DNA of 64,000 bases from Comamonas fluminis (GTDB taxonomy: Bacteria > Pseudomonadota > Gammaproteobacteria > Burkholderiales > Burkholderiaceae_C), in assembly GCF_019186805.1 (NCBI RefSeq), contig NZ_CP066783.1, forward strand, positions 4,725,501-4,789,500. Direction: 5' to 3'. Each line of letters begins with the position of its first letter. Position 1 is the stretch's first letter. Below are positions 20,821 through 57,889 of the stretch, in pieces. The position numbers and the translations under genes are program-made. Under the pieces are notes generated by a model. That model saw nothing but the letters and a program-made list of their open reading frames with translations. It was not told the origin of the DNA and made no database searches.

Positions 20821-20920
20821 CACCCCCTGAGGCGCTTTGCGCCTTCCCCCTCTCTGGCGCTACGCGCCGGAGGGGGACAACACCTTCGCGGCGGGGCGGC
20901 CCTTGCTCGGTGTTTCTGGC
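20821..20920 (+). repeat. GC-rich structured repeat, copy A, behind amgK
   Basis: Begins ACCCCCTGAGGCGCTTTGCG and ends TTGCTCGGTGTTTCTGGC. It contains three nested or serial hairpins (GGCGC/GCGCC, CCCCC/GGGGG enclosing a variable arm, and a final GC-rich arm). The first base lies 4 bp after the amgK stop. Copies B-D lie at 38730, 42456 and 57807. Confidence 0.8.
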
Positions 20921-20960
20921 TTGAGCCACGCCCTATTTCAGACTATTGCTATCTATTCAA

Positions 20961-21701
20961 ATGCCGCGCTATCACTGCCCTATTCCACTGCATATTGGCA
21001 TCGAGCTGGACTTGCCTGCGGGCGCTGCTCGCCATGTGCAGGTGCTGCGTCACCAGCCCGGTGATGTCATCACCTTGTTCGAGGGCCAGACCGGCAATGG
21101 CTTCACGGGCGGCGAGTTCGATGCCGTCATCACCCATATGGGCCGCAGCGATGTGGGCGTGCGCATTGAGTCTCACCGCGCCACCGAGCGCGAAGCCGCC
21201 CGTGCCGTGCATCTGGTGGTGGGCATGCCCGCCAACGAGCGCATGGACTGGCTGGTGGAAAAAGCCACTGAGCTGGGCGTAGCCAGCATTCAGCCCGTGA
21301 TGGCGGCACGCAGCGTGCTCAAGCTCAAGGGCGACCGTGCGGACAAGAAGATCGAGCGCTGGCAGTCGATTGCCGTCTCGGCCTGCGAGCAATGCGGCCG
21401 TAACCAGGTGCCCGTCATTCACGCCCCTCAGTCGCTGGCCGACTGGCTGCGCAGCAGCGAAGCCCCTGGCACTGATGCCACCCGACTGGTGCTGTCCCTG
21501 CGCGAAGGCAACCAGCCACTGCGCGCCGCCACGGGCGATGCCCAGGCCGTCTGGGTGCTGCACGGCCCCGAAGGCGGCCTGACCGCGCAGGAAGAAGACT
21601 GGGCGCTGGAGCGCGGCTGGAAGCCCGCCAGTCTGGGCAACCGCGTTCTGCGCGCCGAAACGGCCTCTGTGGCCGCTCTTTCATTGCTGGCCCTGGAGTA
21701 A
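20961..21701 (+). CDS. rsmE: 16S rRNA m3U1498 methyltransferase RsmE
   Basis: RsmE methylates N3 of U1498 in 16S rRNA. The 246-residue protein has the N-terminal PUA-like region with ARHVQVLRHQPGDVITLFEG and the C-terminal SPOUT knot (VLHGPEGGLTAQEEDWA and SLGNRVLRAETAS), plus the family motif ERMDWLVEKATELGV. The ATG at 20961 (MPRYHCPIPL) is preferred to a TTG five codons upstream. It is separated from the next gene by only 3 bp, so the two are likely co-transcribed. Confidence 0.95.
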   Translation: MPRYHCPIPLHIGIELDLPAGAARHVQVLRHQPGDVITLFEGQTGNGFTGGEFDAVITHMGRSDVGVRIESHRATEREAARAVHLVVGMPANERMDWLVEKATELGVASIQPVMAARSVLKLKGDRADKKIERWQSIAVSACEQCGRNQVPVIHAPQSLADWLRSSEAPGTDATRLVLSLREGNQPLRAATGDAQAVWVLHGPEGGLTAQEEDWALERGWKPASLGNRVLRAETASVAALSLLALE

Positions 21702-21704
21702 ATC

Positions 21705-22439
21705 ATGAGCAGCTGTCACCTCTCCCTGGCCAAGGCCGAGTTCTACCCCCAGAATTTCCGCGTGGAAGCCCCCGAGCCTCTGCCCGAAAAAATCATCACC
21801 CCGCGCCGCACAGGCTGCATCATCGTCAATGCAGCCGCTGAATCCTCTGCAGCGCTTTTGGGTCGTACGTTTACAGCTCCTGAAGAAGGAGCGCCCCCCT
21901 CACCGGTAGAGCGCGTTCTGGTATCCGCCAGCTTTGGTCTGGTGCCGCACTGGGTCAAATCCGCCTCAGATGGCCGTTTGCGCGCCCTCAAGCTGGTCAA
22001 CGCAAAGATCGACAACCTGACCACAGGCACCGCGTTTCGGGACGCCTGGCTGGCTGGCCAGCGCTGCATCGTGCCGCTGCAGGCCTTTCAGGTCGATGAT
22101 CTGCGCCCCGGCAAGCCCGTGCCCACCCGCATCACCCGCGTGGACAACCAGCCCATGGGCGCCGCCGGCGTCTGGGCGCGCTGGGTGGGCGAAGACGGCG
22201 AAATCATCACCAGCTACGCCCTCATCACCATTAACGCCAACGCCCATGCGCTGATGAACCGCTACGGCCACGCAGGCAACGATAAGGCCATGCCCGCCAT
22301 CCTCAACGAAGGTGCGTATGACGCCTGGCTCAACGCCAAGGTCAACAAGGCCAAGGAATTTCTGCGCCCCTATCCTGCAGAAAAACTGCGCGCCAACCCC
22401 GTGGAAAAAGGCCGCAAGCAGCCGCCACCGCTGCTCTAA
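21705..22439 (+). CDS. SRAP-family (HMCES/YedK-like) protein with altered catalytic positions
   Basis: A 244-residue protein of the SOS-response-associated peptidase family, whose members crosslink to abasic sites through Cys2. The fold is shown by SFGLVPHWVK, LVNAKIDNL, AWLAGQRCIVPLQAF and DKAMPAILNEGAYDAWL. The catalytic set is not canonical: the N-terminus reads MSSCHLSL with no Cys at position 2, the usual Glu in the FYEW-type motif is replaced by QVDD, and the histidine motif before MPAIL reads GNDKA. Only the Asn of VNAK is clearly kept. It probably cannot form the standard thiazolidine link. It lies 3 bp after rsmE and its stop overlaps a convergent gene. Confidence 0.85.
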   Translation: MSSCHLSLAKAEFYPQNFRVEAPEPLPEKIITPRRTGCIIVNAAAESSAALLGRTFTAPEEGAPPSPVERVLVSASFGLVPHWVKSASDGRLRALKLVNAKIDNLTTGTAFRDAWLAGQRCIVPLQAFQVDDLRPGKPVPTRITRVDNQPMGAAGVWARWVGEDGEIITSYALITINANAHALMNRYGHAGNDKAMPAILNEGAYDAWLNAKVNKAKEFLRPYPAEKLRANPVEKGRKQPPPLL

Positions 22440-23317
22440 GACTCCAGAAACTGCAGATCCAGCCACTGCGCAAGCCGCGCAAGCACGGGCTCTGCCAGCT
22501 CGGGGCTTTCGTTGAAGATCTCGTGATAGGCCGCCTCAAAGCACTGGGCCTGCACCACGCTGCCCGGCGCCTGCTGTGCAAACTCGGCACTGCCTGCCGG
22601 GTTCACCAATTGGTCCTGCCCCGCCCATAGCAGCAGCGTGGGCACGCACCAGTTGCGCGCCTTGGCCTGCACGCGCAGGCCGCCTTCCGCCATATAGCGG
22701 GCCAGCCGTGCGCTGATGCGGTTGTGGTTCAGACCATCGCTGTCATAGGCCTTCACCACCGCAGCATCATGCGACAGGTGGCGCGACTGCACGCCGTTGG
22801 CCACGCGCAGATTGGGCAGCAGCCTGGGCAGGCCTGCCATCAAGGCTTTTTGCAAGCCCGACAAATGCAGAGCCAGCGCGGGCGATGACAGCACCAGCGC
22901 GTCCACATGTCGCAGGCCTGTTGCTACAAAATCTGCAGCTACCAGCCCACCCATGCTATGGCCTAGCAGCACAATTTGCTGTTTTTTGGGCAAGTCTGCC
23001 CGCAGGCCATCCAGCACCACGGCCAGATCATCGAGCAGCCGCATATCGCTGGTCAGCCCGCCTTGCGGCCCACCCGACAGGCCATGGCCGTACTGGTCGT
23101 AGGCACGCACGGCAAAGCCCCAGGCATTGAGACTGCGCGCCAGCGCGGCGTAGCGGCCGCTGTGTTCGCCCAGACCATGCACGAGCAGCACCGTTGCACG
23201 GCTTTTACGGCCCTCTTCCAGCGGCCAGTCGCGCAGCGCCAGCTGGGTGCCGTCGGGCGCGCTCATATGGCTGAGGCGGGCTTCTGCCCCAATATGCCCC
23301 TGAGTTGCTGTCTGCAT
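22436..23317 (-). CDS. Alpha/beta hydrolase, monoacylglycerol-lipase-like
   Basis: A 293-residue serine hydrolase of the Hydrolase_4 group. The oxyanion region is VLLVHGLGEHSGRY, followed by YDQYGHGLSGGPQG, the nucleophile elbow LGHSMGGL, the acid in WAGQDQLVNPAGS and the histidine in AYHEIFNE. All three triad residues are visible. The ATG at 23317, with a GGGGG run upstream, is preferred to a start 25 codons earlier. Monoacylglycerol or lysophospholipid is the usual substrate type. The stop overlaps that of the convergent SRAP gene in the four bases CTAA. Confidence 0.88.
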   Translation of the reverse strand: MQTATQGHIGAEARLSHMSAPDGTQLALRDWPLEEGRKSRATVLLVHGLGEHSGRYAALARSLNAWGFAVRAYDQYGHGLSGGPQGGLTSDMRLLDDLAVVLDGLRADLPKKQQIVLLGHSMGGLVAADFVATGLRHVDALVLSSPALALHLSGLQKALMAGLPRLLPNLRVANGVQSRHLSHDAAVVKAYDSDGLNHNRISARLARYMAEGGLRVQAKARNWCVPTLLLWAGQDQLVNPAGSAEFAQQAPGSVVQAQCFEAAYHEIFNESPELAEPVLARLAQWLDLQFLES

Positions 23318-23414
23318 ATGCGCCCCCTGCGTGCCTGATCTGGCGTCGAGAATGACGCTGACCGAGCCATCCGTCAACCCGGCGGGTGGCACTCAGACGT
23401 CTTCAGCAGCGTCA

Positions 23415-23915
23415 TCATTCCACTGCGCCAGATCGTCCACCGGGCGGTGGCATACGGTTTTGCAGCTCCTCGGCAATCCACGCCGGGTCGATGTAGTTGT
23501 ACTCAGACTCAATCACCCAGCACAGAAACTCGTGCGGGCCACCATTCAGATAGGGCGGTGGCGATACGGGCTTGAACACCGTGGGCAGCTTTTCGCTGAC
23601 CGAGACATCATTGAGCACATGGCCCAGCTCCTGCACCACGCTCCAGGCCAGCGGGTGGCGCAGATCAATCCGAAGCTTGACCCACCAGAAAGCATCCGCC
23701 GTCACCTGCGACGACAACAGCTGCACGCCGGGCAAGCGCTTCAAAAAGTCCACCAGTTGAGGCAAGCCGCGCTTGAGGGCCGCTTTATCCATGGTTTCCA
23801 CTGGCGGGGTGATGGCTTCCAGTTTTTGCACCAGATGCTCGTTGAGGCTGCGGCCAGCGTCCTGTGCTTCACGCTCCAGCGACTGCAGCAGCTCGGCAGG
23901 CAGATTCAGTTCCAT
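23415..23915 (-). CDS. Hypothetical protein with ribbon-helix-helix-like N-terminus
   Basis: A 166-residue soluble protein I do not recognise. The first 35 residues (LPAELLQSLEREAQDAGRSL, then NEHLVQKLEAI) resemble antitoxin-type ribbon-helix-helix domains. The rest contains FWWVKLRIDLRHPLAWSVVQ and a conserved-looking C-terminal segment with NYIDPAWIAEELQNRM. No toxin gene is adjacent: the neighbours are a hydrolase and an M20 peptidase on the same strand. Confidence 0.7.
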   Translation of the reverse strand: MELNLPAELLQSLEREAQDAGRSLNEHLVQKLEAITPPVETMDKAALKRGLPQLVDFLKRLPGVQLLSSQVTADAFWWVKLRIDLRHPLAWSVVQELGHVLNDVSVSEKLPTVFKPVSPPPYLNGGPHEFLCWVIESEYNYIDPAWIAEELQNRMPPPGGRSGAVE

Positions 23916-23943
23916 GACTACCCTTCCTAGTTGATATCAAAAA

Positions 23944-23990
23944 AATAGCTGCAAGCGCTTATCCATCAAGCGATTGCAGCTGATTTGACT
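23944..23990 (+). repeat. Short dispersed repeat (ATAGCT..AGCGCTT family)
   Basis: AATAGCTGCAAGCGCTTATC, then CATCAAGCGATTGCAGCTG. Inner arms GCTGCAA and TTGCAGC and AGCGCTT/AAGCG make this the most symmetrical copy; it can fold into a hairpin and may terminate the M20 peptidase transcript, which ends 10 bp to its right. Confidence 0.65.
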
Positions 23991-24000
23991 TAAAACCCCA

Positions 24001-25506
24001 TCAAGCCTGTGCCGGGTCTGCTTGCTCCGCTTGCTGGTTGCGCGCCATGGCCGCAATCACCTCGGCCACGCTGGCCGTGAGCTTCTTGGCATAAGGCACA
24101 TGCAGAAACTCATTCGGGCCATGGGCATTGCTCTTGGGGCCAAGCACGCCGCAGACCATCATTTGCGCCTTGGGAAAGCCCTGGCTCAGCTGGTTCATCA
24201 GCGGAATCGTGCCGCCCTGGCCGATATAGCCACAGCCCGCGCCAAAGTGGGTCTGGCTGGCGGCGTTGAGCGCGTTTTCAAACCAGTGGTCCATGCCCGG
24301 CGCATTCCAGCCGCTGGAGCTGGACATGCCTTCCCAGGTCACCCTGGCTTCATAAGGCGCGTTGTCTTCCAGCAGCGCCTTCATTTCCTGCACGCAGGCT
24401 GCAGCGTCCACCAGCGGGGGCAGGCGCAGGCTGAGCTTGAAGGCCGTGTAAGGGCGCAGCACATTGCCCGCGTTTTGCAGATTGGGGATGCCGTCCACAC
24501 CGGTTACGCTCAGCGTGGGCTCCCAGGTGCGGCGCACCAGCGCTTCGACCGGGTCGGTGGTGGTGGGCAGCGAAATGCGGGCCGAGCCGCCGCAGTCATA
24601 GTGCGCCCAGGGGAAGCGGGCATAGGCGTCCTCGCCCAATATCTGCGCCGTGGCGCGGATCTGCGTCATGCGCTCTGCCGGCACCTCGCAGTGAAAGCTC
24701 TGCGGCAGCAGGCGTCCGTTCTTGCTGTCTTCCAGGCGGTCCAGCACCTGGCGCATGATGCGAAACGACGAGGGCACGACACCCGAGGCATCACCTGAGT
24801 GCACGCCTTCGGTCAGAATCTGCACCTTCAGCGTGCCGCTGGCCATGCCGCGCAGGCTGGTGGTCAGCCACAGCTGGTCGTAGTTGCCTGCACCGCTGTC
24901 AAGGCAGATGACCAGACCCACATCGCCCAGACGCGGTCGCAGCAGCTCGATATAGGGCAGCAGGTCGGCAGAGCCGCTTTCCTCGCAGGTTTCGATGATG
25001 CCCACGATGCGCGGGTGCGCCACCTTCTGGCGCTTGAGCTCCTGAATGGCGGCAATGCTGGCGTACACCGCATAGCCGTCGTCGGCGCCGCCACGGCCAT
25101 AGAGCTTGCCGTCTTCGTACTTGGGTGTCCACGGGCCCAGGTCGCTGCGCCAGCCTTCAAATTCGGGTTGCTTGTCCAGGTGCCCATACATCAGCACCGT
25201 AGGGGCGGTGGCCGATTTTTCAGCCGTGCCAGCCACTTCAAAAAAGATCAGCGGCGTGCGGCCCGGCTGCTGAATCACTTCCAGCTTCAGGCCTTCGACC
25301 TTTTGCGCCTCCACCCAGGCGGCGGCATTGCGCACCACGGTGGCGATATAGCCCTGCTGCTCCCAGTCGGGCGCAAACATGGGCGATTTGGCGGGGATGG
25401 CGATGTAGTTCGTCAGCTCAGGGACGATGCTCTGATCCCAGACTTGGCTGATTTCACGCAAAGCCTGTTCTGGCTGCAGCGATTGGGGAGAGATTCGAGC
25501 ATTCAC
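24001..25506 (-). CDS. M20-family metallopeptidase (carnosinase-like)
   Basis: A 501-residue di-zinc peptidase. Metal ligands are visible in order: MYGHLDKQPE (His), YGRGGADDGYA (bridging Asp), IETCEESGSAD (catalytic Glu pair), CLDSGAGNYD (Asp) and NEFLHVPYAKK (His) near the C-terminus. A dimerisation (lid) domain occupies about residues 215-390. The start is a GTG at 25506 supported by AAGGAG seven bases upstream. There is no signal peptide, so it is probably a cytoplasmic dipeptidase or deacylase. Substrate unknown. Confidence 0.9.
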   Translation of the reverse strand: MNARISPQSLQPEQALREISQVWDQSIVPELTNYIAIPAKSPMFAPDWEQQGYIATVVRNAAAWVEAQKVEGLKLEVIQQPGRTPLIFFEVAGTAEKSATAPTVLMYGHLDKQPEFEGWRSDLGPWTPKYEDGKLYGRGGADDGYAVYASIAAIQELKRQKVAHPRIVGIIETCEESGSADLLPYIELLRPRLGDVGLVICLDSGAGNYDQLWLTTSLRGMASGTLKVQILTEGVHSGDASGVVPSSFRIMRQVLDRLEDSKNGRLLPQSFHCEVPAERMTQIRATAQILGEDAYARFPWAHYDCGGSARISLPTTTDPVEALVRRTWEPTLSVTGVDGIPNLQNAGNVLRPYTAFKLSLRLPPLVDAAACVQEMKALLEDNAPYEARVTWEGMSSSSGWNAPGMDHWFENALNAASQTHFGAGCGYIGQGGTIPLMNQLSQGFPKAQMMVCGVLGPKSNAHGPNEFLHVPYAKKLTASVAEVIAAMARNQQAEQADPAQA

Positions 25507-25674
25507 GGTGCGACTCCTTCAGAGGCTGTGCGCAGCGCCGCTGCGCGATTCTGGTCATGCCCGCATTGTGCGGCAGCCTTGCCATCCATGGCTGCGGTGG
25601 TGAATTCAGCGGGTCTGCGCGGATCTGCAGTGTGAACCCGCTTCCAGAATCAGAGCTTGCTGCGCCCTTCATTC

Positions 25675-25708
25675 AAGCATTTGATGGTGTTTTTCATCTC
25701 AAATGCTT
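25675..25708. other. Inverted repeat downstream of metW
   Basis: AAGCATTTGA and TCAAATGCTT arms, 10 bp perfect, around a T-rich centre. It lies 39 bp past the metW stop and could end the metX-metW transcript, although a clear T-run on the minus strand is missing. Confidence 0.45.
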
Positions 25709-25746
25709 AATAAACCAGCGCAACAAGCTTCTCAATCAATAGCAAA

Positions 25747-27482: not shown

Positions 27483-27485
27483 ATG

Positions 27486-27519
27486 AAAAAACCCGGCATC
27501 GCTAAAAACGAGGCCGGGT
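27486..27519 (-). terminator. metX leader terminator (expression platform)
   Basis: Read on the minus strand: ACCCGGC, a 15-base loop, GCCGGGT, and six T residues, ending 3 bases before the metX ATG. Lying between the SAM-II aptamer and the start codon, it is the obvious switch for transcription termination. Confidence 0.8.
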
Positions 27520-28497: not shown

Positions 28498-28764
28498 TAG
28501 CATTTAGTCCATGTAAGACAAAAGGAGATTTAGATATTCCAAATTTCGTATTTGAGGGTAATTCCCATCTGAGGAATGTTGTTACAAGCATGAAATTTGA
28601 CGCAATCGTAATACGAGCGAGCCTCTTGTGACTCATAATGCTTGAGTCTTTGTTTAGAGAGCAATTTCTGGATGAGGGCAAGTGCGTTTGCGTCTCTAAT
28701 GTTGTCATCGAAGGCTGACTCCCTAGGGCTCCATCGCGTTTTCAAGTTTTTTCAGGAGTCCACC
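28498..28764 (+). other. AT-rich leader region of the first RNA-binding protein gene
   Basis: No convincing gene. Two inverted repeats are visible: GACTCA-TAATGCT-TGAGTC at 28630-28648, and TTAGAGA near 28655 pairing with TCTCTAA near 28697. A CAGGAG ribosome-binding site lies just before the ATG at 28765. A long structured leader is common for cold-inducible genes; no promoter could be fixed by eye. Confidence 0.4.
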
Positions 28765-29145
<381 letters not shown>

Positions 29146-29169
29146 TTAGTTATTTAATATAGCTAATGC

Positions 29170-29197
29170 AAAAAAGGATCTTCGGATCCTTTTTTTG
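29170..29197 (+). terminator. Rho-independent terminator of RRM copy 1
   Basis: A-run, GGATC, UUCG-type loop TTCG, GATCC, then seven T residues. A very stable tetraloop hairpin. Confidence 0.93.
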
Positions 29198-29392
29198 TTG
29201 CTAAACGTTATCAGCTCCGTGTTTTGGAGCATTTATTTTTTTCAGTGTTCTGATTCATAATCCCGCATTCGGGAATCCCGTTCACACGCGAATAGGTATT
29301 TGGGGTTTGGGCAAGTCTCTTGTATAGGCATTTGTTGCGAACATCCAGAGTCGATCGCCATATTGAAAGCATTGAGGAGCTAGGAGTTATTA

Positions 29393-29923
29393 ATGGGCAA
29401 TAAGCTGTATGTCGGCAACCTTCCTTATGGTGTGCGCGACAATGACCTGGAGCAGGCATTCGGCCAGTTTGGTGCAGTCACCAGTGCGCGTGTCATGATG
29501 GAACGCGACACCGGCCGCTCCAAGGGCTTCGGCTTTGTGGAAATGGGCAGCGAAGCAGAAGCACAAGCGGCTATTCAGGGCATGAACGGCCAGCCTCTGG
29601 GTGGTCGCAGCCTGGTGGTCAATGAAGCACGTCCCATGGAACCCCGTCCTCCTCGCTCTGGTGGCTTTGGCGGCGGCTATCGCAATGAAGGCGGTGGCTA
29701 CGGTGGCGGTAACCGCGAAGGCGGCTACGGCGGTGGCAATCGCGAAGGTGGATATGGCGGCGGTGGTGGCTATGGCCGTGGCGGCGACCGTGATGGCGGT
29801 GGCGGCGGTTATGGTCGTGGTGATGGCCGTGGCGACGGCGGCTTCCGCAGCCCCTATGGCTCTGGCCCCCGTAACGGCGGCCGCGGCGGTTATGGCGGCG
29901 GTGGCAATAACCACGGCGAATAA
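29393..29923 (+). CDS. Glycine-rich RNA-binding protein (RRM), copy 2
   Basis: A 176-residue paralogue of the upstream gene. The RRM (KLYVGNLPYG, KGFGFVEMGSEAEAQAAIQG) and the linker VVNEARPMEPRPPRSGGFGG are nearly the same, while the tail is longer, with GGGNREGGYGGGN-type repeats and RGD/RGG-like units that usually bind RNA non-specifically. CTAGGAG precedes the ATG. A 247-bp gap holding a terminator separates the copies, so each is likely to have its own promoter. Confidence 0.93.
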   Translation: MGNKLYVGNLPYGVRDNDLEQAFGQFGAVTSARVMMERDTGRSKGFGFVEMGSEAEAQAAIQGMNGQPLGGRSLVVNEARPMEPRPPRSGGFGGGYRNEGGGYGGGNREGGYGGGNREGGYGGGGGYGRGGDRDGGGGGYGRGDGRGDGGFRSPYGSGPRNGGRGGYGGGGNNHGE

Positions 29924-38677: not shown

Positions 38678-38729
38678 GCTTTCTATCTCAATGATTTCGC
38701 GCAAGACAGGAAACCGGCGCGATTCAAGT

Positions 38730-38810
38730 CAGTGACGCCGAGCAAGAGCCGCCTCGCGGCGAGGGCGTCGTCCCCCTTCTAGGGGGAGGCCGCGCAGCGG
38801 CTCAGGGGGT
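38730..38810 (-). repeat. GC-rich structured repeat, copy B, behind the lipoprotein gene
   Basis: Minus strand: ACCCCCTGAGCCGCTGCGCG, a short CCCCC/GGGGG hairpin, then GACGCCCTCGCCGCGAGGCG and a GGCGTC end. It starts 3 bp after the stop of the lipoprotein gene. Confidence 0.8.
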
Positions 38811-38812
38811 AT

Positions 38813-39307
38813 TCACCGCCTCGGCTCGCGCAAATACATGCTCTCGTCGGTGAACATCACCTTCTGCACAATGCCTTGCGGGTCGATGTGCACATGGGCA
38901 CGCCGGGCAAAAGTATTGTCCATGAACCGGTAGGTCCAGATGTCGCCTTTGAAGCTGTAAACCCCCTCGACTTTCGCAGGCGGGCCAAACAGGCGGTAAA
39001 CATCGTCGCGGGTGTCTATGCCATTGCGCAGCGCAAAGAAGTGGGCACTATCCAGCACCTGTTCCACACGGGTCAGCTTGTGCTGGGCATCAAAGTCCAT
39101 GTGATAGACCTGCTGGCCTGCGGGCTGCTGGCTGTAGACGAGACGTGTTCCGCCATCCGGCAATGGCACCACCACCGTGGGCTTGCCCATGCCTTTTTCC
39201 ACCTCGGCCTGAGGCATGCCCGGCTTTTGCCACTGGGGCACCATGCATCCTGTCAGGGCAAGAGCCAGCACACTGGCGGCAATGCTTGTGGACAGGAGTC
39301 TAGGCAT
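38813..39307 (-). CDS. BamE/SmpA-like lipoprotein
   Basis: A 164-residue lipoprotein: the signal peptide ends in the lipobox LTGC (Cys about residue 20). The mature part, with PGMPQAEVEKGMGKPTVVVP and RNGIDTRDDVYRLFGPPAKV, contains two copies of the short helix-turn-beta pattern of BamE/SmpA-type domains. AAGGAA upstream of the ATG at 39307 fixes the start. It sits between def and fmt on the same strand. True BamE is normally shorter (about 110-120 residues), so this is a family relative, not bamE itself. Confidence 0.8.
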   Translation of the reverse strand: MPRLLSTSIAASVLALALTGCMVPQWQKPGMPQAEVEKGMGKPTVVVPLPDGGTRLVYSQQPAGQQVYHMDFDAQHKLTRVEQVLDSAHFFALRNGIDTRDDVYRLFGPPAKVEGVYSFKGDIWTYRFMDNTFARRAHVHIDPQGIVQKVMFTDESMYLREPRR

Positions 39308-41257: not shown

Positions 41258-42436
41258 ATGGTGACCTCTTCAGCGCTGAACGCTCACCATGATGCAGAGG
41301 GCGCCGCCTGGCTCCGGCTGCTGATGACTCCCGGCCTCAGTCGCAGCGCAGCAAGGCGCTTGCTGGCAAAGGCCGGCAGCGCCCAGCAAGTCTGGCTGCT
41401 GTCAGACACCGATCTCCGCGAATGCGTCACGCAGGTGCAGGCTCAGGCATTTGCCGCCCTGCCGCCGAAATGGCCAGAGCCTGTGGAACGCCTGCAGCAA
41501 TGGCTGAGCACGCCTGCGGCCGACTGCTTTCACGCCATGGTGCCGCTGGGGCACGCGCAATACCCCGAAGCCCTACTGCAGACCGAAGACCCACCGCTGC
41601 TGCTGTTTGTGCAGGGGCCGCTGTCGCTGCAGCAGTCTGGCCAGCCCTGGTTCCCCTACCCGCAATCGCTGGCCATGGTGGGCAGCCGCAACCCCTCCGC
41701 GCAGGGCATCGTCAACGCCCGTGAAATGGCACAGGCACTGGCCCAGCAAGGGCTGTGCATCGTCTCCGGCCTCGCACTGGGCATTGATGCTGCCGCCCAT
41801 GAAGGGGCGCTGAAAGCCTCGTACAGCGGCACAGCACCGCTGACCATTGCCGTGGTGGGCACAGGGCTGGACCAGGTCTACCCACGCGCCCATCAGGCGC
41901 TGGCCGGGCAGATTGCACGAAATGGCCTGGTCATCAGCGAATACCCACTGGGCAGCGAGCCCCGGCCCCACCATTTTCCGCAGCGCAACCGCATCATCTC
42001 GGGCCTGTCGCAAGGCACGCTGGTGGTGGAGGCAACTTTGAAATCCGGCTCGCTCATCACTGCCCGCCTGGCCAGCGAACAGGGCCGCGAAGTCTTTGCC
42101 ATCCCCGGCTCCATACACGCGCCGCAGGCCAAGGGCTGCCACGCACTGCTGCGCCAGGGAGCCAAACTGGTAGAAACAGCAGCCGACATTCTGGAAGAGC
42201 TTCAAGGCATAAAACAGCCTGTAGCACCGACCCACAAAGCGCAAGCAGCTATAAATACAGAAGCTAAAAATCCATTAATCCAAGCCCTGGGCCACGACCC
42301 CATGACCCTGGAAACCTTGAGCGAACGCACCGGATGGGACGCTGCGCAATTGCAAGCACAGCTAATGGAGCTAGAGCTGGATGGCCTAGTCGCCCGCCTG
42401 CCCGGCGGCTTCTACCAGCACATCACCCGCAGCTAA
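41258..42436 (+). CDS. dprA: DNA-processing protein DprA
   Basis: DprA loads RecA on incoming single-stranded DNA in transformation. The 392-residue protein has the Rossmann-like core: MVGSRNPSAQG, GLALGIDAAAHEGAL, VVGTGLDQVYPRAH and FPQRNRIISGLSQGTLVVEA, and a C-terminal winged helix (MTLETLSERTGWDAAQLQAQ). The linker at about residues 325-342 is encoded by sequence resembling the dispersed ATAGCT repeat (42235-42270). Confidence 0.95.
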   Translation: MVTSSALNAHHDAEGAAWLRLLMTPGLSRSAARRLLAKAGSAQQVWLLSDTDLRECVTQVQAQAFAALPPKWPEPVERLQQWLSTPAADCFHAMVPLGHAQYPEALLQTEDPPLLLFVQGPLSLQQSGQPWFPYPQSLAMVGSRNPSAQGIVNAREMAQALAQQGLCIVSGLALGIDAAAHEGALKASYSGTAPLTIAVVGTGLDQVYPRAHQALAGQIARNGLVISEYPLGSEPRPHHFPQRNRIISGLSQGTLVVEATLKSGSLITARLASEQGREVFAIPGSIHAPQAKGCHALLRQGAKLVETAADILEELQGIKQPVAPTHKAQAAINTEAKNPLIQALGHDPMTLETLSERTGWDAAQLQAQLMELELDGLVARLPGGFYQHITRS

Positions 42437-42455
42437 AAACTGGCGCACCCCAAAA

Positions 42456-42558
42456 CCAGAGACGCCAAGCAAGAGCCGCCTCGCGGCGATGGCGTCGTCC
42501 CCCTTCCATAGCGCGCAGCGCGTAGAGAAAGGGGGAAGCGGCGCAGCCGCTCAGGGGG
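42456..42558 (-). repeat. GC-rich structured repeat, copy C, behind the DUF1631 gene
   Basis: Minus strand: CCCCCTGAGCGGCTGCGCCG, then a CCCCC/GGGGG hairpin with an inserted arm (TACGCGCTGCGCGCTA), then GACGCCATCGCCGCGAGGCG and a GGCGTCTCTGG end. It abuts the stop of the DUF1631 gene without a gap. Confidence 0.8.
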
Positions 42559-44934
42559 TTAGGCGAGCCTTTCCGGGTTCGCTTGAATCTTCTGCAGCGC
42601 ATCGCGCGTAGCACGCACCGTCAGCGCTTCCTCGTCATGCACAGCCAGCAGGCCCGACTGCAGATAGACAGCCATGCGCTGCAACTGCAGCAGGTGGCAG
42701 TGGCCATCCAGCGAGGCAAACAGATGCAGCTGTTTGCGGCGACTGCGCCAAACATATTGCACCTGCGTGCGCTGGCCGTTGTGGTCCAGCGTGAACCAAC
42801 GCCCGGTCTCCAGCGCCTGCGCCCATTCCAGCATGGCGGGTTCGGCCACGGCTTCGGTATTGGGAATCACATGCAGGCCTTCGGTATCCACACCCAGCAT
42901 CATTTCAATGCTTTCGGTGGACAAAGGCATATCGTCCAGCGAACCATCGTCGCTGATGTAATTTTCCAGCTCCGACAGGCGTTTGGCCATGCCTTCGATG
43001 CGGGCAGGCGCAATGGCCGCCGTCTTGGAGACAAAGGCCTCGGCCAGCGTATCCGTCAGCTTCTTGATCTGGGCCGATTGCTCATCGCCCGTTACGCTGA
43101 TCAGTTCCAGCCCCTGACGCAGCGTCTGCAGCAGCGCAGGCAGCCCCTGAATGACGCGGGCGCGCTCCTGGCGGGAAGGCTTGGCACTGGCAGACCAGAC
43201 CAACTCGCTGGCGGCCTGCTTGAAACGCATGGCCTGCGCATCCTTGGCGCCATAGCGCACCGTCGCCATGGCCAGCACATCGGCCCAGGACTTGAACAAA
43301 AAGTCCCGCACCTCTTCGCGCACCGGCATGTCTGCCAGCATATTGCGCAGCTCGATGGTGTACTGAATCGCCAGCGTTTCCTTTTGCTCCACCTGCTGAG
43401 CCACGCTGGTGATCTTGGCCGTGGACTGGCTCTGCGCCAGGTTCTTGGTGAGGAAGTCCTCGAACTCTTTCAGCACCAGCGCAAAGACCTTCTGGCCCGT
43501 CTCTGGGTACTGCTCAATCACCTGCACCACACGGCGGATTTCCACCTCCAGCGCGTTGCCGCTGATGCTGCTGGCATCAAAACCCATGACGCAGGAACCC
43601 ATGCGGTCGATCAGCTTGCGTGCCGGATGGTTGAGATCGCTGAAAAACTGCGGCTCTGCCAGCGCCACGCGCAGCACAGGAACCTGCAGGCGCGCAAACC
43701 AGACACGAATCGATGGCGGCAGTCTGTCCTCCGACAGAATGCTCTGGAACATCAGGGCGACCACCTCGATCGTGGCTTTTTCGCCCTTGGTTTCGGCCTT
43801 TTGCTTCCACTCGGCCGAGCGTTCACTGAGCAAATTGGCCAGTTGCCCCAGCGCTGCAGGGCTGTAATCCATCACAGGCATGCCCATGACAGTGCCTGCA
43901 GCCATTGTGTACTGCGTCTGCAGCTGCGTGACTGACAGCTGCTGCTCCTGCAGGGCCTGAGCCAGTGCAGCAGAAGCCGGAGGCATGGGAACTGCCGCAG
44001 CACCGGGCATCAGCCCCTGCAGGCCAATGGAGGGCTGGCTCAGCAACTGACGCAGCTGATTCATGGCATCCATCGCACGATGGCGCGCACGCGCCAGCAT
44101 GCTCACGCCCATCTGCGCAACCGCCTGAGAAGGCACACCCATGCCTGCACCATGCACCATGGGCAGTTGCGCCCCTGTGACCATGCCCTGCGGGTGGTAG
44201 CCGGTAAAGCCCGTAAAGCCGCTGAGCCCGCCCTGGTCCAGATTCATCGAGGCCGATGGCGCCGCGCTTTCTGTGCGGCGCACGCGCAGCGGTGCATCCT
44301 CGGCCTTGCTCACGCCCTTGGCATCGAGCAGCTTGTGCAGAATGTCAAACTCCGCAAGCATCAGCGGTGACAGGGCGTTCTGTAGCGGCTCCAGAGCACG
44401 CAGCAAGTGGCTGCGCTGCAAGCCGCAGCTCAGCCACTGTTCAACCAGATGCAGGCAGATGGTTTCGGCGCGAAACATGTCCCTGGAGGGCAGCTCTTGC
44501 CCCTCCAGTTGCTGAATGCGCCGGCGCATGGATTCAAAGCTGGGCTGCAGCGTCTCGCCCATGGCCAGCGCCATGCGAGAGGACAGAATCTTGTTCTCCA
44601 CCACCTCATCGTCCACCAGCTCGAAAGTCAGTGGCGCCGCCGCAGAGCTGCGCCCTTCAGCCAGCGGAGGTTTGCGCGCCGCCTGCTGCAAGACCTGCAC
44701 GCAGGCCTTCACCCAGGCTTCGCGGTGTTGCTGAAAGCTGGCCCAGGCCTCGCGGCATTCCTGCATATCACCCTGGGCTGTCACGGATGTGGTCTGACTG
44801 GTGAAAAACTGGTCAAGCTGCTCAGCCACGGCAGGCAGACCCTGGCAAATGCCATGGGTCCAACGCAAACGCGCCTGCCAACCCAGTTGTTGCTGGGTGA
44901 CAGGCGCGTTGGAGGAAGACTGCGGAGGAGTCAT
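42559..44934 (-). CDS. DUF1631 domain protein
   Basis: A 791-residue protein of the DUF1631 family, whose function is unknown. It is mainly helical, without a signal peptide or membrane segment. Typical segments are LSEDRLPPSIRVWFARLQVP, LAEPQFFSDLNHPARKLIDR and the C-terminal PilZ-like stretch with GRWFTLDHNGQRTQVQYVWR, RSRRKQLHLFASLDG and a hydrophobic run. The PilZ-like end suggests possible cyclic-di-GMP contact, but the RxxxR motif is not clear. The ATG at 44934 follows GGAGGAG. It lies just after secF on the same strand. Confidence 0.88.
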   Translation of the reverse strand: MTPPQSSSNAPVTQQQLGWQARLRWTHGICQGLPAVAEQLDQFFTSQTTSVTAQGDMQECREAWASFQQHREAWVKACVQVLQQAARKPPLAEGRSSAAAPLTFELVDDEVVENKILSSRMALAMGETLQPSFESMRRRIQQLEGQELPSRDMFRAETICLHLVEQWLSCGLQRSHLLRALEPLQNALSPLMLAEFDILHKLLDAKGVSKAEDAPLRVRRTESAAPSASMNLDQGGLSGFTGFTGYHPQGMVTGAQLPMVHGAGMGVPSQAVAQMGVSMLARARHRAMDAMNQLRQLLSQPSIGLQGLMPGAAAVPMPPASAALAQALQEQQLSVTQLQTQYTMAAGTVMGMPVMDYSPAALGQLANLLSERSAEWKQKAETKGEKATIEVVALMFQSILSEDRLPPSIRVWFARLQVPVLRVALAEPQFFSDLNHPARKLIDRMGSCVMGFDASSISGNALEVEIRRVVQVIEQYPETGQKVFALVLKEFEDFLTKNLAQSQSTAKITSVAQQVEQKETLAIQYTIELRNMLADMPVREEVRDFLFKSWADVLAMATVRYGAKDAQAMRFKQAASELVWSASAKPSRQERARVIQGLPALLQTLRQGLELISVTGDEQSAQIKKLTDTLAEAFVSKTAAIAPARIEGMAKRLSELENYISDDGSLDDMPLSTESIEMMLGVDTEGLHVIPNTEAVAEPAMLEWAQALETGRWFTLDHNGQRTQVQYVWRSRRKQLHLFASLDGHCHLLQLQRMAVYLQSGLLAVHDEEALTVRATRDALQKIQANPERLA

Positions 44935-44990
44935 TCCGCTAGTGTAAAGCGGCAATGGGCTTCACAGACATTGCCGCACCACGATATGGA

Positions 44991-52241: not shown

Positions 52242-52437
52242 GGCTTGTCTCCATGTGGGTTGCATCTCTGGCAGCTAGTGGCGGCCAGAGCAGCTATTGC
52301 TTTGGGCATTGCTGCGCCATTTGCAGCAAACACCCGTTGTTTTGCCAAAGTTTACGGAAAACCGTCTGAATAGAGCTTTCTTTTTATTGCCGGGATTTAC
52401 CTAGTTTTTGAAAGAATCTTGCTGTAAATTCATCAAT

Positions 52438-52932: not shown

Positions 52933-52968
52933 GCCAGTCGCACGCGGCATTCAAAAGAGAGGGAGACA

Positions 52969-53457: not shown

Positions 53458-53514
53458 GCGTGGCGCCAGTGCTGCGACCTGGACTGCTTCAAAAAACAAA
53501 GCATATCCCGCATG

Positions 53515-53600
53515 TTTTCAAACAGTTTCAGGACCAATCAGCACCGAAACCTTGATATGACATACACCCGCAGCTCATGACTTGATAGTGCACTCCGCAG
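53515..53600. repeat. Candidate third repeat type (GTTTCAGG..GAAACC)
   Basis: CAGTTTCAGGACCAATCAGC then ACCGAAACCTTGATATGAC. It resembles sequence at 55430-55462 and at 36541-36565. There is no gene between 53458 and 53669. Confidence 0.35.
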
Positions 53601-53669
53601 CACCACAGGGCCAGCGCCCCGCCCCGCCAGCGGAACTACGTATTTGTCAGATCAAGTTCCTCCGCCAGA

Positions 53670-55385
53670 ATGGGCCTTATGGCCCATGAAGACCCCCCAG
53701 ATCGCGCAGCCCCCTCTCCTGTTTCAGAGCCGGGTTTCGCCCCTGAGGGCAAGCTGCTGGAAGACCCCTCCGGTATGAGCAGCGGCGGGCCGCAGCCCGC
53801 ATCGGCCACGCCCGGCGTCTGGACGCCGCTGGCCACACCCACTTTCCGCATGCTGTGGCTGATCTGGATGGCGGCCAATATCTGCATGTGGATGAACGAT
53901 GTGGCAGCCGCCTGGCTGATGACATCGCTGACCACATCGCCCGTGCTGGTGGCGCTGGTGCAGTCGGCCTCCACCATGCCGGTCATGCTGCTGGCCCTGC
54001 CCAGCGGAGCGCTGGCCGATATTCTGGATCGTCGCCGCTATTTCATCGTCACCCAGTTCTGGGTGGCTGCCGTGGCGCTGCTGCTGTGCCTGGCGGTGCT
54101 GTCGGGCCAACTCACACCCTATCTGCTGCTGGCCCTGGTGTTTGCCAACGGCATCGGTCTGGCCATGCGCTGGCCGGTGTTTTCGGCGCTGATTCCCGAG
54201 CTGGTGCCCAAGCACCATCTGCCCTTTGCCATGGCGCTCAACGGCGTGGCCATGAATGCCTCGCGCATCATCGGCCCGCTGGTAGCGGGCGCCATCATTG
54301 CCAGCCTGGGCAGCGCCTGGGTGTTTGTGCTGAATGCGGCGCTGTCCATCATCTCGGGCTTTGTGCTGCTGCGCTGGAAGCGCCAGCAACCCGACAACCC
54401 GCTGGGCCGCGAGCGCCTGGGCTCGGCCATGCGCGTGGGCCTGCAATTCATCAAAGAGTCGCCGCGCATGCATGCCGTGCTGCTGCGCACCATCTGCTAC
54501 TTTCTGCAGGCCGCCTCCATCATGGCGCTGCTGCCACTCACAGCCCAGCGCCTGGACCATGGCACAGCCGCCAGCGGCAGTGCAGGCACCTTCACAGTGC
54601 TGCTGGCATCCATGGGCGCAGGTGCGATTCTGGGCGCCATGCTGATGCCGCGCATACGCCAGATGCTGTCGGGCGAGCGCACGGTGCTGGCCGGCGTCGC
54701 CGCGCAAAGCCTGGCCACGCTCACTGTGGCCTTCGCCCCCCATATTGCCGTTGCCGTACTGGGCATGATGCTGTCTGGCGTGGCCCTGCTGGCCACGGCC
54801 AACACGCTGGGCGTGGCCGCGCAGATGGCGCTGCCCAACTGGGTGCGGGCACGCGGCATGTCGATTTATCAGATGTCCATCATGGGCAGCACGGCCATTG
54901 GCGCAGCCATCTGGGGCAAGCTGGCCAGCCTTGCCACGGTGCAGATTAGCATGGCCGTGGCCGCCATCAGCGGGCTGACCGCGCTGGTTATCGTGCAGCG
55001 TCTGAACCCTGACCGCGATATTGAAGAAGACCTGAGCCCCTCACGCGCCTTCCCGCCGCCTGCGCACAGCCAGCCCGAACAGGGCAGGGTGGTGGTAACC
55101 ATCGAGTACGAAATCGACCCGGCCCGGGCCGATGCATTCCGCGAGCTGATGCAGCTGAGCCGGCGCAGCCGCCTGCGCCAAGGCGCGCTGTCCTGGAAGC
55201 TGCTGCACAGCATGAGCCACCCTGAGCGCTTTGTGGAGCAGATTACCGATGAGTCCTGGACCGAGCACCTGCGCCGCTTTGAGCGAGTGACCGCCGACGA
55301 CGTGGCCCTGCGCGACCGCAAGCTGGCCTTTCACAAGGGCAAGGAGCCGCCCGCAGTGCAGCGCTTTTTTACGGATGCGGTCTGA
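53670..55385 (+). CDS. MFS transporter with C-terminal soluble domain
   Basis: A 571-residue protein. Residues about 50-455 form a 12-helix major facilitator of the MFS_3/EntS type (TFRMLWLIWMAANICMWMND, ALPSGALADILDRRRYFIVT, GRERLGSAMRVGLQFIKESP). After it, residues about 470-571 form a soluble domain (GRVVVTIEYEIDPARADAFR, ELMQLSRRSRLRQGALSWKL, FVEQITDESWTEHLRRFERV) that resembles antibiotic-biosynthesis-monooxygenase dimeric ferredoxin-like folds. This fused arrangement recurs in proteobacteria; the substrate is unknown. Starts at 53670, 53679 or 53775 are possible; the first lies in a short hairpin. Confidence 0.88.
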   Translation: MGLMAHEDPPDRAAPSPVSEPGFAPEGKLLEDPSGMSSGGPQPASATPGVWTPLATPTFRMLWLIWMAANICMWMNDVAAAWLMTSLTTSPVLVALVQSASTMPVMLLALPSGALADILDRRRYFIVTQFWVAAVALLLCLAVLSGQLTPYLLLALVFANGIGLAMRWPVFSALIPELVPKHHLPFAMALNGVAMNASRIIGPLVAGAIIASLGSAWVFVLNAALSIISGFVLLRWKRQQPDNPLGRERLGSAMRVGLQFIKESPRMHAVLLRTICYFLQAASIMALLPLTAQRLDHGTAASGSAGTFTVLLASMGAGAILGAMLMPRIRQMLSGERTVLAGVAAQSLATLTVAFAPHIAVAVLGMMLSGVALLATANTLGVAAQMALPNWVRARGMSIYQMSIMGSTAIGAAIWGKLASLATVQISMAVAAISGLTALVIVQRLNPDRDIEEDLSPSRAFPPPAHSQPEQGRVVVTIEYEIDPARADAFRELMQLSRRSRLRQGALSWKLLHSMSHPERFVEQITDESWTEHLRRFERVTADDVALRDRKLAFHKGKEPPAVQRFFTDAV

Positions 55386-55418
55386 AATAGAAGGAGCCGC
55401 TTGCGCTTGTCAGCTAAC

Positions 55419-55480
55419 GGTTTCAGGCATGAATCACCTTGAAACCTTTGAACAACAAGTGCTAGCAGCTCCTGTTTTTG
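55419..55480. repeat. Composite dispersed repeat between the MFS gene and mltA
   Basis: GGTTTCAGGCATGAATCACC and TTGAAACCTTTGAAC, followed by CAAGTGCTAGCAGCTCCTGT and a T-run. The right part also occurs near azlD (AACAGGAGC), the left part near 53520. Confidence 0.45.
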
Positions 55481-55498
55481 CAGTTCGATGAGCGCAAA

Positions 55499-56674
55499 TT
55501 AGCGCAGATGCGGTGCCGACCCCGCCAGAGCCTTGGGCCAGAAAGCCCAGAGCTTGAGCGGCTGCTTGACGCGGCCCGCCACATCACCGGCCTCGGGGCC
55601 CCAGCCCATGAAATAGTCAGCGCGCACCGCGCCCAGAATGGCGCTGCCCGTGTCCTGCGCAAACACCAGGCGGTTCAGCGCAATCGTCGGGCCTGGGGTG
55701 GACAGCCAGACAGGCGTGCCGTAGGGAATGCTGTTGCGGTCCACGGCGATGGAGCGACCGGGCGTCAGCGCCACGCCCTGCGCGCCCTTGGGGCCGAACT
55801 GTGCGTCGAACTCGTTGAGTTCCTCTTCCTTGAAGAACACATAGCGCGGGTTGCTCCACAGCATCTCGTTCACACGGCCAGGGTTGGCCGCAATCCAGGC
55901 GCTGATGCCGGGCCAGGTCGCGTCGCGCACCAGGTTCTGGTCCAGCAGCCACTTGCCCACGCTCTTGTAAGGCTGGTCATTGGTGCCTGCAAAGGCCACA
56001 CGAATCATGCGCTGCGTGCCATTGGCCTCAGTCAGCATCAGGCGGCCCGAGCCCTGAATGTGCAGCACCAGCATGTCCACCGGGTCACGCAGCCAGGCAA
56101 TCACGCGGCCAGACAGCGCGGCCTGCGCGTCGGCATTGGTGTCGATCTGCTGGCGCGTGTACCAGGGCTTGCGTTTGCCAAAGCCCATGGGGGTCTGATA
56201 AATCGGCACATTGAAGCCATTGCCCTGCACGCGGCGCGCCTCGTACATGGGTTCGTAGTACGAGGTCAGCATGCCGTCCGGGCTGCCCGTGGTCGCCTCG
56301 ATGCGGTAGGGCTGCAACTGGCTCATCATCCAGCTGCGCTGCTCATCCTCGCCCGCAATGCTCAGGCGACGCACATCGCTGCACAGGCTGGCAAATACGG
56401 TGCTGGGGCGCTCGCAGTTCTTGATCCAGGCGTTCCAGGCTTCGTTGAGCGAATCGGTGGAGACACCGGGTAAATCCCCCCAGTCCACCGGCACCCAGCG
56501 ACTCTTTGTGGGTACATTGGCAGTGAACGGAGGTTTCTGGACAACGGCCCCGCCGCCATGGGGCTTGAGCTCCGGCACGGAAGAAGGATCGTTTTGCTGC
56601 TTGGTGGTGGTGCAAGCCACCAGGGTTCCGACAATCAGCGCCAGCGAAGCGCGGCGCAGGAGATGGACATTCAT
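55499..56674 (-). CDS. mltA: Membrane-bound lytic murein transglycosylase A
   Basis: MltA cleaves peptidoglycan to 1,6-anhydro-MurNAc products, which feed recycling enzymes such as AmgK (19702). The 391-residue lipoprotein has the lipobox LVACT (Cys about residue 21), the MltA insert domain (MLTSYYEPMYEARR, VDMLVLHIQGSGRLML) and a C-terminal 3D domain (GRSIAVDRNSIPYGTPVWLS, FAQDTGSAILGAVRADYFMG) with the catalytic Asp residues. The ATG at 56674 overlaps the start codon of a divergent small frame. Confidence 0.95.
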   Translation of the reverse strand: MNVHLLRRASLALIVGTLVACTTTKQQNDPSSVPELKPHGGGAVVQKPPFTANVPTKSRWVPVDWGDLPGVSTDSLNEAWNAWIKNCERPSTVFASLCSDVRRLSIAGEDEQRSWMMSQLQPYRIEATTGSPDGMLTSYYEPMYEARRVQGNGFNVPIYQTPMGFGKRKPWYTRQQIDTNADAQAALSGRVIAWLRDPVDMLVLHIQGSGRLMLTEANGTQRMIRVAFAGTNDQPYKSVGKWLLDQNLVRDATWPGISAWIAANPGRVNEMLWSNPRYVFFKEEELNEFDAQFGPKGAQGVALTPGRSIAVDRNSIPYGTPVWLSTPGPTIALNRLVFAQDTGSAILGAVRADYFMGWGPEAGDVAGRVKQPLKLWAFWPKALAGSAPHLR

Positions 56675-56813
56675 GGGTCTGATTTTGCTTGAAGCATTGC
56701 TGGCATTGGCAATTCTGGTCGCTATTGTGTGGTGGACCATGTTCTCAGGCCGTCAAAAGGGTGAGATCCCTTCCAACGCAAGGGCTCACTCCACAGACGA
56801 AAACACAGATTGA
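56673..56813 (+). CDS. Candidate 46-residue single-span membrane protein
   Basis: Starts MGLILLEALLALAILVAIVW, one strong transmembrane helix, followed by WTMFSGRQKGEIPSNA and a polar tail. Its ATG shares two bases with the divergent mltA start codon (CATG). Upstream in-frame starts would run into mltA. Helix and tail composition look protein-like, and codon choice is normal for this genome. I do not recognise the family. Confidence 0.5.
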   Translation: MGLILLEALLALAILVAIVWWTMFSGRQKGEIPSNARAHSTDENTD

Positions 56814-57027
56814 CATCGCCTCTGTTGCCATTGCGCCAATCGATCCCTCCCTACAAGCCAGTTCGCTCTTGGCTGTAGTGACAAACTTTTGCATCCGCAA
56901 TAGGCTGTACGAGTGCGTCCTACGTTTTTTACCCTTCCAGACGCAGTACGCTCACTGCCTTGCTGCTTTGACATCAAAGCGCGGCTATCAGACCCCAAGA
57001 TTGGGGCAATCATCTAAGGAGTTTTCT

Positions 57028-57696
57028 ATGCGCAAGCAAATGGCTGTGACGGCCGCTCTGGCCTCTGCCCTGTTGATCACTGGCTGTGCCACAACCGATG
57101 GCATGTCCGACACCACCCGTCGCACTGCCACCGGTGCAGGCATTGGTGCCCTTGGCGGTGCAGCCATCGGCGCCATCGCTGGCGGTCACGCAGGCTCTGG
57201 CGCCCTGATCGGCGCTGGCGTGGGCGCCCTGGGCTCCTACATCTGGTCCCAGAACCTGGAAAAGCAAAAGCGTGAAATGGAGGCCGCTACCCAGGGTACC
57301 GGCGTGGGCGTGAGCCAGACTGCCGACAACCAGCTGAAGCTGGACATCCCCAGCGACGTGTCCTTCGCGACCGGCAAGGCTGACATTCAGTCCAACTTCG
57401 CTCCTATCCTGGACCGTTTCGCTGAAGGCCTGCGCAACAACCCCAACGCAGAAGTGCGCGTCATCGGTCACACCGACAGCACGGGCTCTGACGCCATCAA
57501 CGACCCCCTGTCGCTGCGCCGCGCTGAAGCCACCCGCAACTACCTGACAGCCCGTGGCGTCAACGGTGCCCGCGTGCAAGTTCAGGGCATGGGCTCGCGC
57601 CAGCCCGTGGCCTCCAACGACACCAACGAAGGCCGCGCCCGCAACCGCCGCGTGGAAATCTTCGTGGGCGAGCGCGCTCCCCAGCAAGCTCGTTAA
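57028..57696 (+). CDS. OmpA-family lipoprotein with glycine zipper
   Basis: A 222-residue outer-membrane lipoprotein: the signal peptide ends in the lipobox LITGC, then a glycine-zipper segment (GAGIGALGGAAIGAIAGGHA, GALIGAGVGALGSYI), and an OmpA C-terminal peptidoglycan-binding domain (FATGKADIQSNFAPILDRFA, VIGHTDSTGSDAIND, EGRARNRRVEIFV). It tethers the outer membrane to peptidoglycan. AAGGAG precedes the ATG. It is a single-gene unit with a strong terminator. Confidence 0.95.
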   Translation: MRKQMAVTAALASALLITGCATTDGMSDTTRRTATGAGIGALGGAAIGAIAGGHAGSGALIGAGVGALGSYIWSQNLEKQKREMEAATQGTGVGVSQTADNQLKLDIPSDVSFATGKADIQSNFAPILDRFAEGLRNNPNAEVRVIGHTDSTGSDAINDPLSLRRAEATRNYLTARGVNGARVQVQGMGSRQPVASNDTNEGRARNRRVEIFVGERAPQQAR

Positions 57697-57713
57697 TCAG
57701 GTCTGACCTGAAC

Positions 57714-57741
57714 AAAAAGCCTCGCATCGCGAGGCTTTTTT
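57714..57741 (+). terminator. Rho-independent terminator of the OmpA-family gene
   Basis: AAAAAGCCTCGC, loop ATC, GCGAGGCTTTTTT. Confidence 0.95.
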
Positions 57742-57806
57742 GCGTCTGAAACTGGCACACCCCATCGCCGCGATGGATACAACAGCTCCATGCACCGTCT
57801 CTTCCG

Positions 57807-57889
57807 CCAGAGACGCCAAGCAAGAGCCGCCTCGCGGCGAGGGCGTCGTCCCCCCTTGGGGGAAGGCGCGACAGCGCCTCAGGGGGTAC
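57807..57889 (-). repeat. GC-rich structured repeat, copy D, overlapping the dctR stop
   Basis: Minus strand: ACCCCCTGAGGCGCTGTCGC, a CCCCC/GGGGG hairpin without an extra arm, then GACGCCCTCGCCGCGAGGCG and a GGCGTCTCTGGC end. The first nine bases encode the last two residues and the stop of the dctR gene. Confidence 0.82.

Follow-up and report, generated by a model that had tools for sequence, protein, structure and literature searches.

Four copies of a repeat at gene ends

The 64,000-nucleotide (nt) stretch of Comamonas fluminis analysed here (contig NZ_CP066783.1, positions 4,725,501 to 4,789,500; hereafter the window) contains four copies of a GC-rich repeat, each located at the stop codon of a gene. 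They belong to a real family of structured, strongly polar repeats in the Comamonadaceae that abut stop codons. The family is most likely of the mRNA 3'-untranslated region (3'-UTR) kind and similar to the repetitive extragenic palindromic sequences (REPs). The four copies and their shared blocks had been described from the sequence alone (the sequence-only reading); all four are confirmed, and the blocks are present in each at the positions given here. The scores of the copies are from a covariance model.

20821..20919, + strand: core of element copy 1 (67.2 bits); tail to about 20938
38729..38811, − strand: core of element copy 2 (96.2 bits); tail to about 38709
42456..42560, − strand: core of element copy 3 (72 bits), hairpin 2 with a long arm
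57807..57888, − strand: core of element copy 4 (99.2 bits); tail to about 57785
19702..20817, + strand: APH-type kinase gene, AmgK-like, upstream of copy 1 (Pfam, NCBIfam); the longest open reading frame (ORF) starts at 19429
38813..39244, − strand: gene of a BamE-domain protein, upstream of copy 2 (Pfam)
42559..44955, − strand: gene of a DUF1631 protein, upstream of copy 3 (Pfam)
57879..58508, − strand: response regulator gene with a LuxR-type domain (DctR/FixJ-like), upstream of copy 4 (Pfam, NCBIfam)

The first C of the CCCCC start is 5 nt from the stop codon in copy 1, 3 nt in copy 2 and 0 nt in copy 3, which directly abuts the TAA of the DUF1631 gene. In copy 4 the stop codon of the response regulator gene is the TGA within the element's own CCCCCTGA. 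The sequence-only reading was right about the close placement, but its range of 0–4 bp becomes 0–5 nt by recount. Two of its gene names, BamE-like and DUF1631, agree with Pfam. The name amgK is plausible, AmgK being the top NCBIfam match of the kinase at 357 bits, below the cut-off of 550; dctR was not confirmed, the top NCBIfam match being FixJ, also below its cut-off (197 versus 255 bits). The tail of copy 3 (42434–42560 together with the core) reaches into the stop codon of dprA, a convergent gene. Only one other covariance-model match is located in the window (57802–57883, + strand, E 0.0076), and it is the antisense of copy 4.

The covariance model (R1, 81 positions) is built on 27 of the 30 loci that came from an initial BLAST search, in which 40 of 137 candidates were scored. 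With this model at least 150 copies are found in the 4.9 Mb genome, the weakest of those listed having an E value of 5e-5. Three extra copies, in stretches L046, L057 and L089, lie beyond the 150 listed and do not enter the context counts. Genes around the copies were called by a custom script trained on the window and applied also to other species. The CCCCCTG end points towards the stop codon of a same-strand gene in 138 of the 150 listed copies (104 in tandem gaps, 34 in convergent gaps). The remaining 12 are 7 copies reversed in tandem gaps, 4 in divergent gaps and 1 within a called ORF; gene-calling errors may account in part for the 11 that do not face a sense stop and for the one or two inside an ORF. 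The preference for gene 3' ends and the fixed orientation that the sequence-only reading had taken from four copies both hold across the genome, the orientation in tandem gaps being correct in 104 copies versus 7 reversed.

With corrected starts, the element begins −8 to +15 nt from the stop codon in 133 of 137 sense-facing copies (median 4 nt); the other four are located at 16, 28, 109 and 113 nt. In the 11 copies that start at −8, the TGA in CCCCCTGA serves as the stop codon. Using uncorrected starts, 123 of 138 copies lie within 15 nt of the stop, as compared to 32.8 predicted for uniform placement in the same gaps and a maximum of 53 of 138 in 100,000 simulated runs. The far end of the element is 15 nt or less from the next gene boundary in only 4 of 149 cases. 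C and then A are preferred at −2 and −1 before the element; otherwise, there is no fixed sequence. Nearly all elements are single units; the 150 listed include 2 pairs of neighbours no more than 500 nt apart, and L046 has another close pair.

The same polarity is found in other genomes. A pattern scan of named genomes gave at least 120 contig pieces, with titles known for 80 of 120. The genera among the matches listed are Acidovorax, Comamonas, Delftia, Paracidovorax, Simplicispira, Diaphorobacter, Verminephrobacter, Hylemonella, Rhodoferax, Giesbergeria and Oryzisolibacter, and all 11 are Comamonadaceae (NCBI taxonomy). Other titles among the matches listed read Burkholderiales or Burkholderiaceae bacterium and, in one case, Proteobacteria bacterium. 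These pieces carry 124 copies, 121 of which have a called gene on the CCCCC side (same-strand stop in 118, divergent start in 3). In tandem gaps, 85 are correctly oriented and none is reversed, and 109 of the 118 start −8 to +15 nt from the stop. In six genomes of six other genera, all 39 classifiable copies (of 40) face a sense stop, 38 of them at −8 to +13 nt; the 39th reads 35 nt, the model having begun at the second C-run, and 1 of the 40 is inside a called ORF. Both sets are biased to well-kept copies, as the scan used an exact pattern and the six-genera set is 40 of 82 counted matches. Within the genus, model matches occur in 33 of 37 genomes (own included), with 0 to at least 76 copies. 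These 37 are part of 61 genomes searched; the other 24, from other families of the order, gave no model match. In a draw of 110 genomes from the family, 14 (own included) have a match at E 1e-6 or better. The element is so far seen only in Comamonadaceae and close kin.

Structure, tail and the gene end

Three hairpins follow the stop codon. H1 has a GCSGC stem, H2 is formed by a C-run and a G-run and often has an extra arm, and H3 is a six-base-pair outer stem enclosing a capped inner hairpin. For the RNAalifold structure of 27 copies, paired cells, compensatory cells and covariation score are all higher than in any of the 500 shuffles or any slid version. Giving H3 a bulged inner hairpin raises the compensatory cells to 47, as compared to 36 for the RNAalifold structure. 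The three-way form of H3 given by RNAalifold was dropped for the bulged hairpin because the pair between R of GCGR and Y of CYCTT covaries strongly (65 GC, 45 AT and 11 CG among 123 listed). In 137 of 139 aligned copies (without the two weakest), the six column pairs with the highest mutual information all belong to the H3 and H1 stems, unlike those at ranks 7, 8 and 10. The H3 stem occurs in 21 distinct fully Watson–Crick versions and is fully paired in 107 of 137 copies. Compensatory changes, to which the sequence-only reading had pointed as a check, are many in two of the three stem regions. The third, the C-run/G-run helix, is nearly invariant and gives little support either way. Copies of other genera show additional compensatory forms by eye. 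As paralogous copies are related, the covariation counts do not represent independent events. Alignment A4 was fitted to the covariance model. Single-copy folds are 1.3 to 2.6 standard deviations below shuffles in the five copies tested.

Similarity between copies starts at model position 0 to +2 in 83 of the 200 best copy pairs and often runs about 17–22 nt past the described end (67 of 200). A GCCAGTT-like motif is located within 30 nt after the core in 62 of the 150 listed copies. As both features lie beyond the core, the dispersed unit is about 100–125 nt long. In genome G076 (L386–L395), 7 of 10 copies share a tail with its own hairpin, GGCCTGCTCCGCGGCC, in place of the GCCAGTTTT tail.

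The exact CCCCCTG start is present in 125 of the 150 listed copies; 7 of these have no second C-run and 14 no G-run, which left 104 copies for folding. The long arm of H2 is present in 52 and absent in 52. In all arm-bearing copies, the G-run prefers the second C-run; among the armless copies, 27 favour the first and 25 the second. A ribosome-gated switch based on competition of the two C-runs for a single G-run is therefore not general.

By analogy with Escherichia coli, the hairpins, lying under or just ahead of a ribosome at the stop codon, might stall it, so that the upstream gene yields less product. REPs 15 nt or less from the stop codon are reported there to stall ribosomes and lower translation (cited in the available part of PMC12306157). 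This precedent and the narrow range of start positions (133 of 137 copies) agree with such a brake. The first firm hairpin varies, however; in the 52 arm-bearing copies of the 104 folded, the first C-run does not hold the G-run and H1 is therefore the first hairpin. We regard a translational brake as improbable.

The sequence-only reading had also offered a terminator. The element, alone or with its T-rich tail, would then end transcription of the upstream gene. A terminator-like signature is present in the element plus 35 nt in 32 of 138 copies on the sense strand, as compared to 1 of 138 on the antisense strand, but it is absent in 106 of 138. In 54 of 150 copies, TTTT starts 10–19 nt past the model end; in 65 of 150, there is none within 60 nt. 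The T-run is therefore not directly behind the last strong stem. The elements occupy wider gaps, as a terminator might, and seldom lie in operon-like tandem gaps no longer than 30 nt (6 of 104, versus 103 of 281 element-free gaps). Among tandem gaps above 30 nt, the median is 123.5 nt for the background and 84 nt for element gaps.

Intrinsic-terminator signatures within about 150 nt downstream, tail included, are found for 42 of 138 elements and 91 of 251 element-free gene ends (p 0.27). When the search begins 12, 25 or 30 nt past the core, the number is 33, 32 or 30 of 138 (p 0.013, 0.009 and 0.003), and separate signatures beyond the tail are rarer than at element-free ends; the comparison is rough, as the two sets of windows do not begin equally far from the stop. 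Most of the deficit is in tandem gaps (15 of 104 with the element, 36 of 143 without). In convergent gaps, by contrast, separate terminators are nearly as common with the element (15 of 34) as without (55 of 108), and the native terminator persists downstream of the element at two loci inspected. At some loci an ordinary terminator appears to follow the element, which would place the element within the 3' UTR; elsewhere, the tail may contribute to termination. The counts decide neither for nor against a terminator, which we consider quite improbable.

Dispersal and relation to known repeats

REPs are the closest known kind, the element being larger, polar, mostly single-unit and stricter in position. 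In the available part of PMC3733652, REPs are high-copy stem-loops, mostly downstream of genes, with uni-REPs and convergent REPs near ORF 3' ends (<20 bp in plotted families). Their stems show complementary changes, and their termini can supply the stop codon, TAG in REPs as compared to TGA in the element. REPs measure 20–40 bp and form dimers and clusters, whereas the element has three hairpins in about 100–125 nt, is strongly polar and occurs nearly always as a single unit. A REP-associated tyrosine transposase (RAYT) gene flanked by copies is a mark of GTAG-type REPs, whereas the element has no linked RAYT. No conserved unpaired terminal GTAG or CGTC tag was found in the 139 aligned copies, CGTC occurring only in the paired, variable H3 stem. 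Five genera looked for in the text of PMC3733652 (Acidovorax, Comamonas, Delftia, Variovorax and Polaromonas) are not mentioned there. REPs have been proposed to act in mRNA stability, termination and translation control and to be of selfish origin (PMC3733652 and PMC12306157, in part), and RNase R in combination with PNPase is said to act on REP-bearing mRNAs (PMC12320835, in part).

The nearest named repeat in these bacteria is the Beta-proteobacterial repeat element (BRE), compared here by description alone from the available part of PMC3110155. It is also GC-rich and about 90 bp long, with reports from Bordetella and from Comamonadaceae, among them Delftia and Acidovorax. BREs are variable-number tandem repeats, some of them intragenic, whereas our element is nearly always single; in that part of the source they number 1–29 copies in the listed Comamonadaceae, with no stop-codon rule. 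The Bor repeats of Bordetella are palindromic, located near coding regions and likened to REPs, but they are only 26–30 bp long (PMC1590033, in part). Rfam gave no match in the window at the gathering score; below it there were four matches around one copy (best E 0.016). Integron attC sites are structured and lie behind the ORF stop codon in a fixed orientation. The element has these three features too, but it is not in arrays, and its 5' C-run pairs with the middle of the element and not with its 3' end. An attC identity was rejected, as no integron integrase is over the cut-off in the genome (5 weaker matches); sub-cut-off matches to the integrase model are likewise present in 14 of 14 control genomes. 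The literature searches made, one of them by stretches of its sequence, gave no description of the element.

The copies are clearly dispersed. They could belong to a selfish non-autonomous mobile element without host function that inserts at gene ends, in which case the polarity would reflect how a transposase recognises its target. The high copy number, the preferred similarity boundaries, the spread from 0 to at least 76 copies per genome within one genus and the turnover between sister species described below all fit this. The sequence upstream of the element, by contrast, is not fixed beyond the C and A preference, and by eye its ends, CCCCCTGAG and about GCCAGTTTT, do not form the terminal inverted repeats of a miniature inverted-repeat transposable element (MITE). 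Among the copy pairs listed, the 45 with the best scores are 78–96% alike, which gives no sign of a recent burst among them, and the plasmids and phages searched gave no match. The only Y1_Tnp gene of the genome has no element copy in 1.5 kb on either side, and Y1_Tnp genes are present in 34 of 37 same-genus genomes, element-poor ones included. A RAYT as the mobiliser is thus unsupported, this sole gene being unlinked and occurrence being unrelated to copy number. The Y1_Tnp (RAYT-like) gene is located at L031 1501–1782 (G000:C2:768992–769273) and is followed by a TCTGACCCCAATT motif. Of the gene-end-targeting mobile element put forward by the sequence-only reading, the dispersal stands; a mobiliser, a target duplication and a clean empty site were not found. 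We think a purely selfish element unlikely.

Aligned blocks of the sister species G019 and G028 (397 kb, repeats included) show 95.4% identity; 21 copies were found in G019 and 16 in G028. At 18 of the 21 G019 sites, G028 has the element or a related remnant. At the other three (213862, 169994 and 241618), the element is absent in G028; the coding sequences stay alike up to roughly the last five codons or up to the stop, and the DNA after the stop differs more widely, so that none is a clean empty site. In G028 (L354 and L357–L358), about 1.8 kb and 8.7 kb of other DNA lie behind the same gene end at two G019 element sites. Among the 18 shared sites, identity between the elements is 93% or more at 10 and 44–85%, less than that of their flanks, at 8. 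Arms of about 15 nt are gained or lost within otherwise identical copies. At site 248030, 88 of 88 aligned positions are identical, and the copies differ by two arms, one of which lies in part beyond the counted span. The same block change at two G019 loci (228450 and 357799) suggests sequence exchange between copies.

The gene ends of the window were compared with those of relatives, leaving out loci with a wrong frame end (10 of 24 for DUF1631, 3 of 29 for the response regulator). The dctR-like gene of eight near relatives without the element (G002, G013, G017, G019, G021, G028, G030 and G035) has the same protein length and a native stop, with a terminator some 17–32 nt downstream. In the window and in G003 its stop is the TGA of the element; in more distant relatives the protein is a few residues longer. 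For the DUF1631 gene, several relatives hold an intact or decayed element at the same place. In G022 (L307), the end of the dctR-like gene has ACCCCCTGAG at the stop codon and no element behind it, which could be a relic or a pre-insertion sequence.

A candidate 3'-UTR element

The explanation that we favour, held tentatively and at a little less than an even chance, is a dispersed, polar RNA element of the 3' UTR, similar to REPs, by which the upstream mRNA would be protected or tuned. The element would be transcribed along with the upstream gene and would fold directly behind the stop codon into a row of GC-rich hairpins. These would block 3'-to-5' exonucleases, and the 3' end of the upstream mRNA would be fixed and protected just past its last codon. 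An additional effect on the ribosome at the stop codon is possible. The copies would derive from an old dispersal, would now be mostly inherited vertically and apparently exchange sequence among themselves. Among the alternatives offered by the sequence-only reading, its 3'-UTR element is the best fit to the placement, the polarity, the replication in other genomes and the two covarying stem regions. The avoidance of short, operon-like tandem gaps and the native terminators located downstream of the element at two loci also speak for it.

Several results weigh against this explanation. The number of further pair types is not above the shuffles (391 and 395 of 500 being at least as high), and alignment A3 has no compensatory pair in the C-run/G-run helix. 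The strand test comparing G.U with A.C cells gives a mixed result; the ratio points to the sense RNA in H1 (18:2) and in the C-run/G-run helix (22:12) but not in H3 (6:16). The scarcity of terminators beyond the tail (30 of 138 versus 91 of 251, p 0.003) leaves room for a terminator role. Among the same-genus genomes, 13 of 37 have 0–5 listed copies, and any function of the element is therefore dispensable. The turnover between the sister species, with 3 of 21 G019 sites lacking the element in G028, also fits a selfish element.

In a bolder reading, the family would be a genome-wide class of bacterial element that is brought to stop codons, or retained there, with near-absolute precision and polarity in many genera of one family. 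It would be an mRNA-tail module coupled to translation termination, gaining and losing hairpin arms and trading sequence between loci at a fixed position relative to the stop codon; we rate this proposal as speculative and rather unlikely. The family offers an unusually clean natural experiment, with well over a hundred near-equivalent copies that obey a single polarity and distance rule, sequence variants in which the stems are preserved, and sister species in which the same gene has or lacks the element.

Two further repeats are located in the window. A direct repeat of 297 nt (28754–29678, 76% identical, spacing 628) lies beside GGCGGC-type short repeats. The second is a dispersed short repeat, ATAGCTGCNNGCGCTT, with 12 matches in the window at up to 2 mismatches, as compared to 1.15 expected; its positions include 10527, 12647, 23945, 27670, 42237 and 48487. 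By eye, strings resembling ATAGCTGCNNGCGCTT are seen downstream of some elements.

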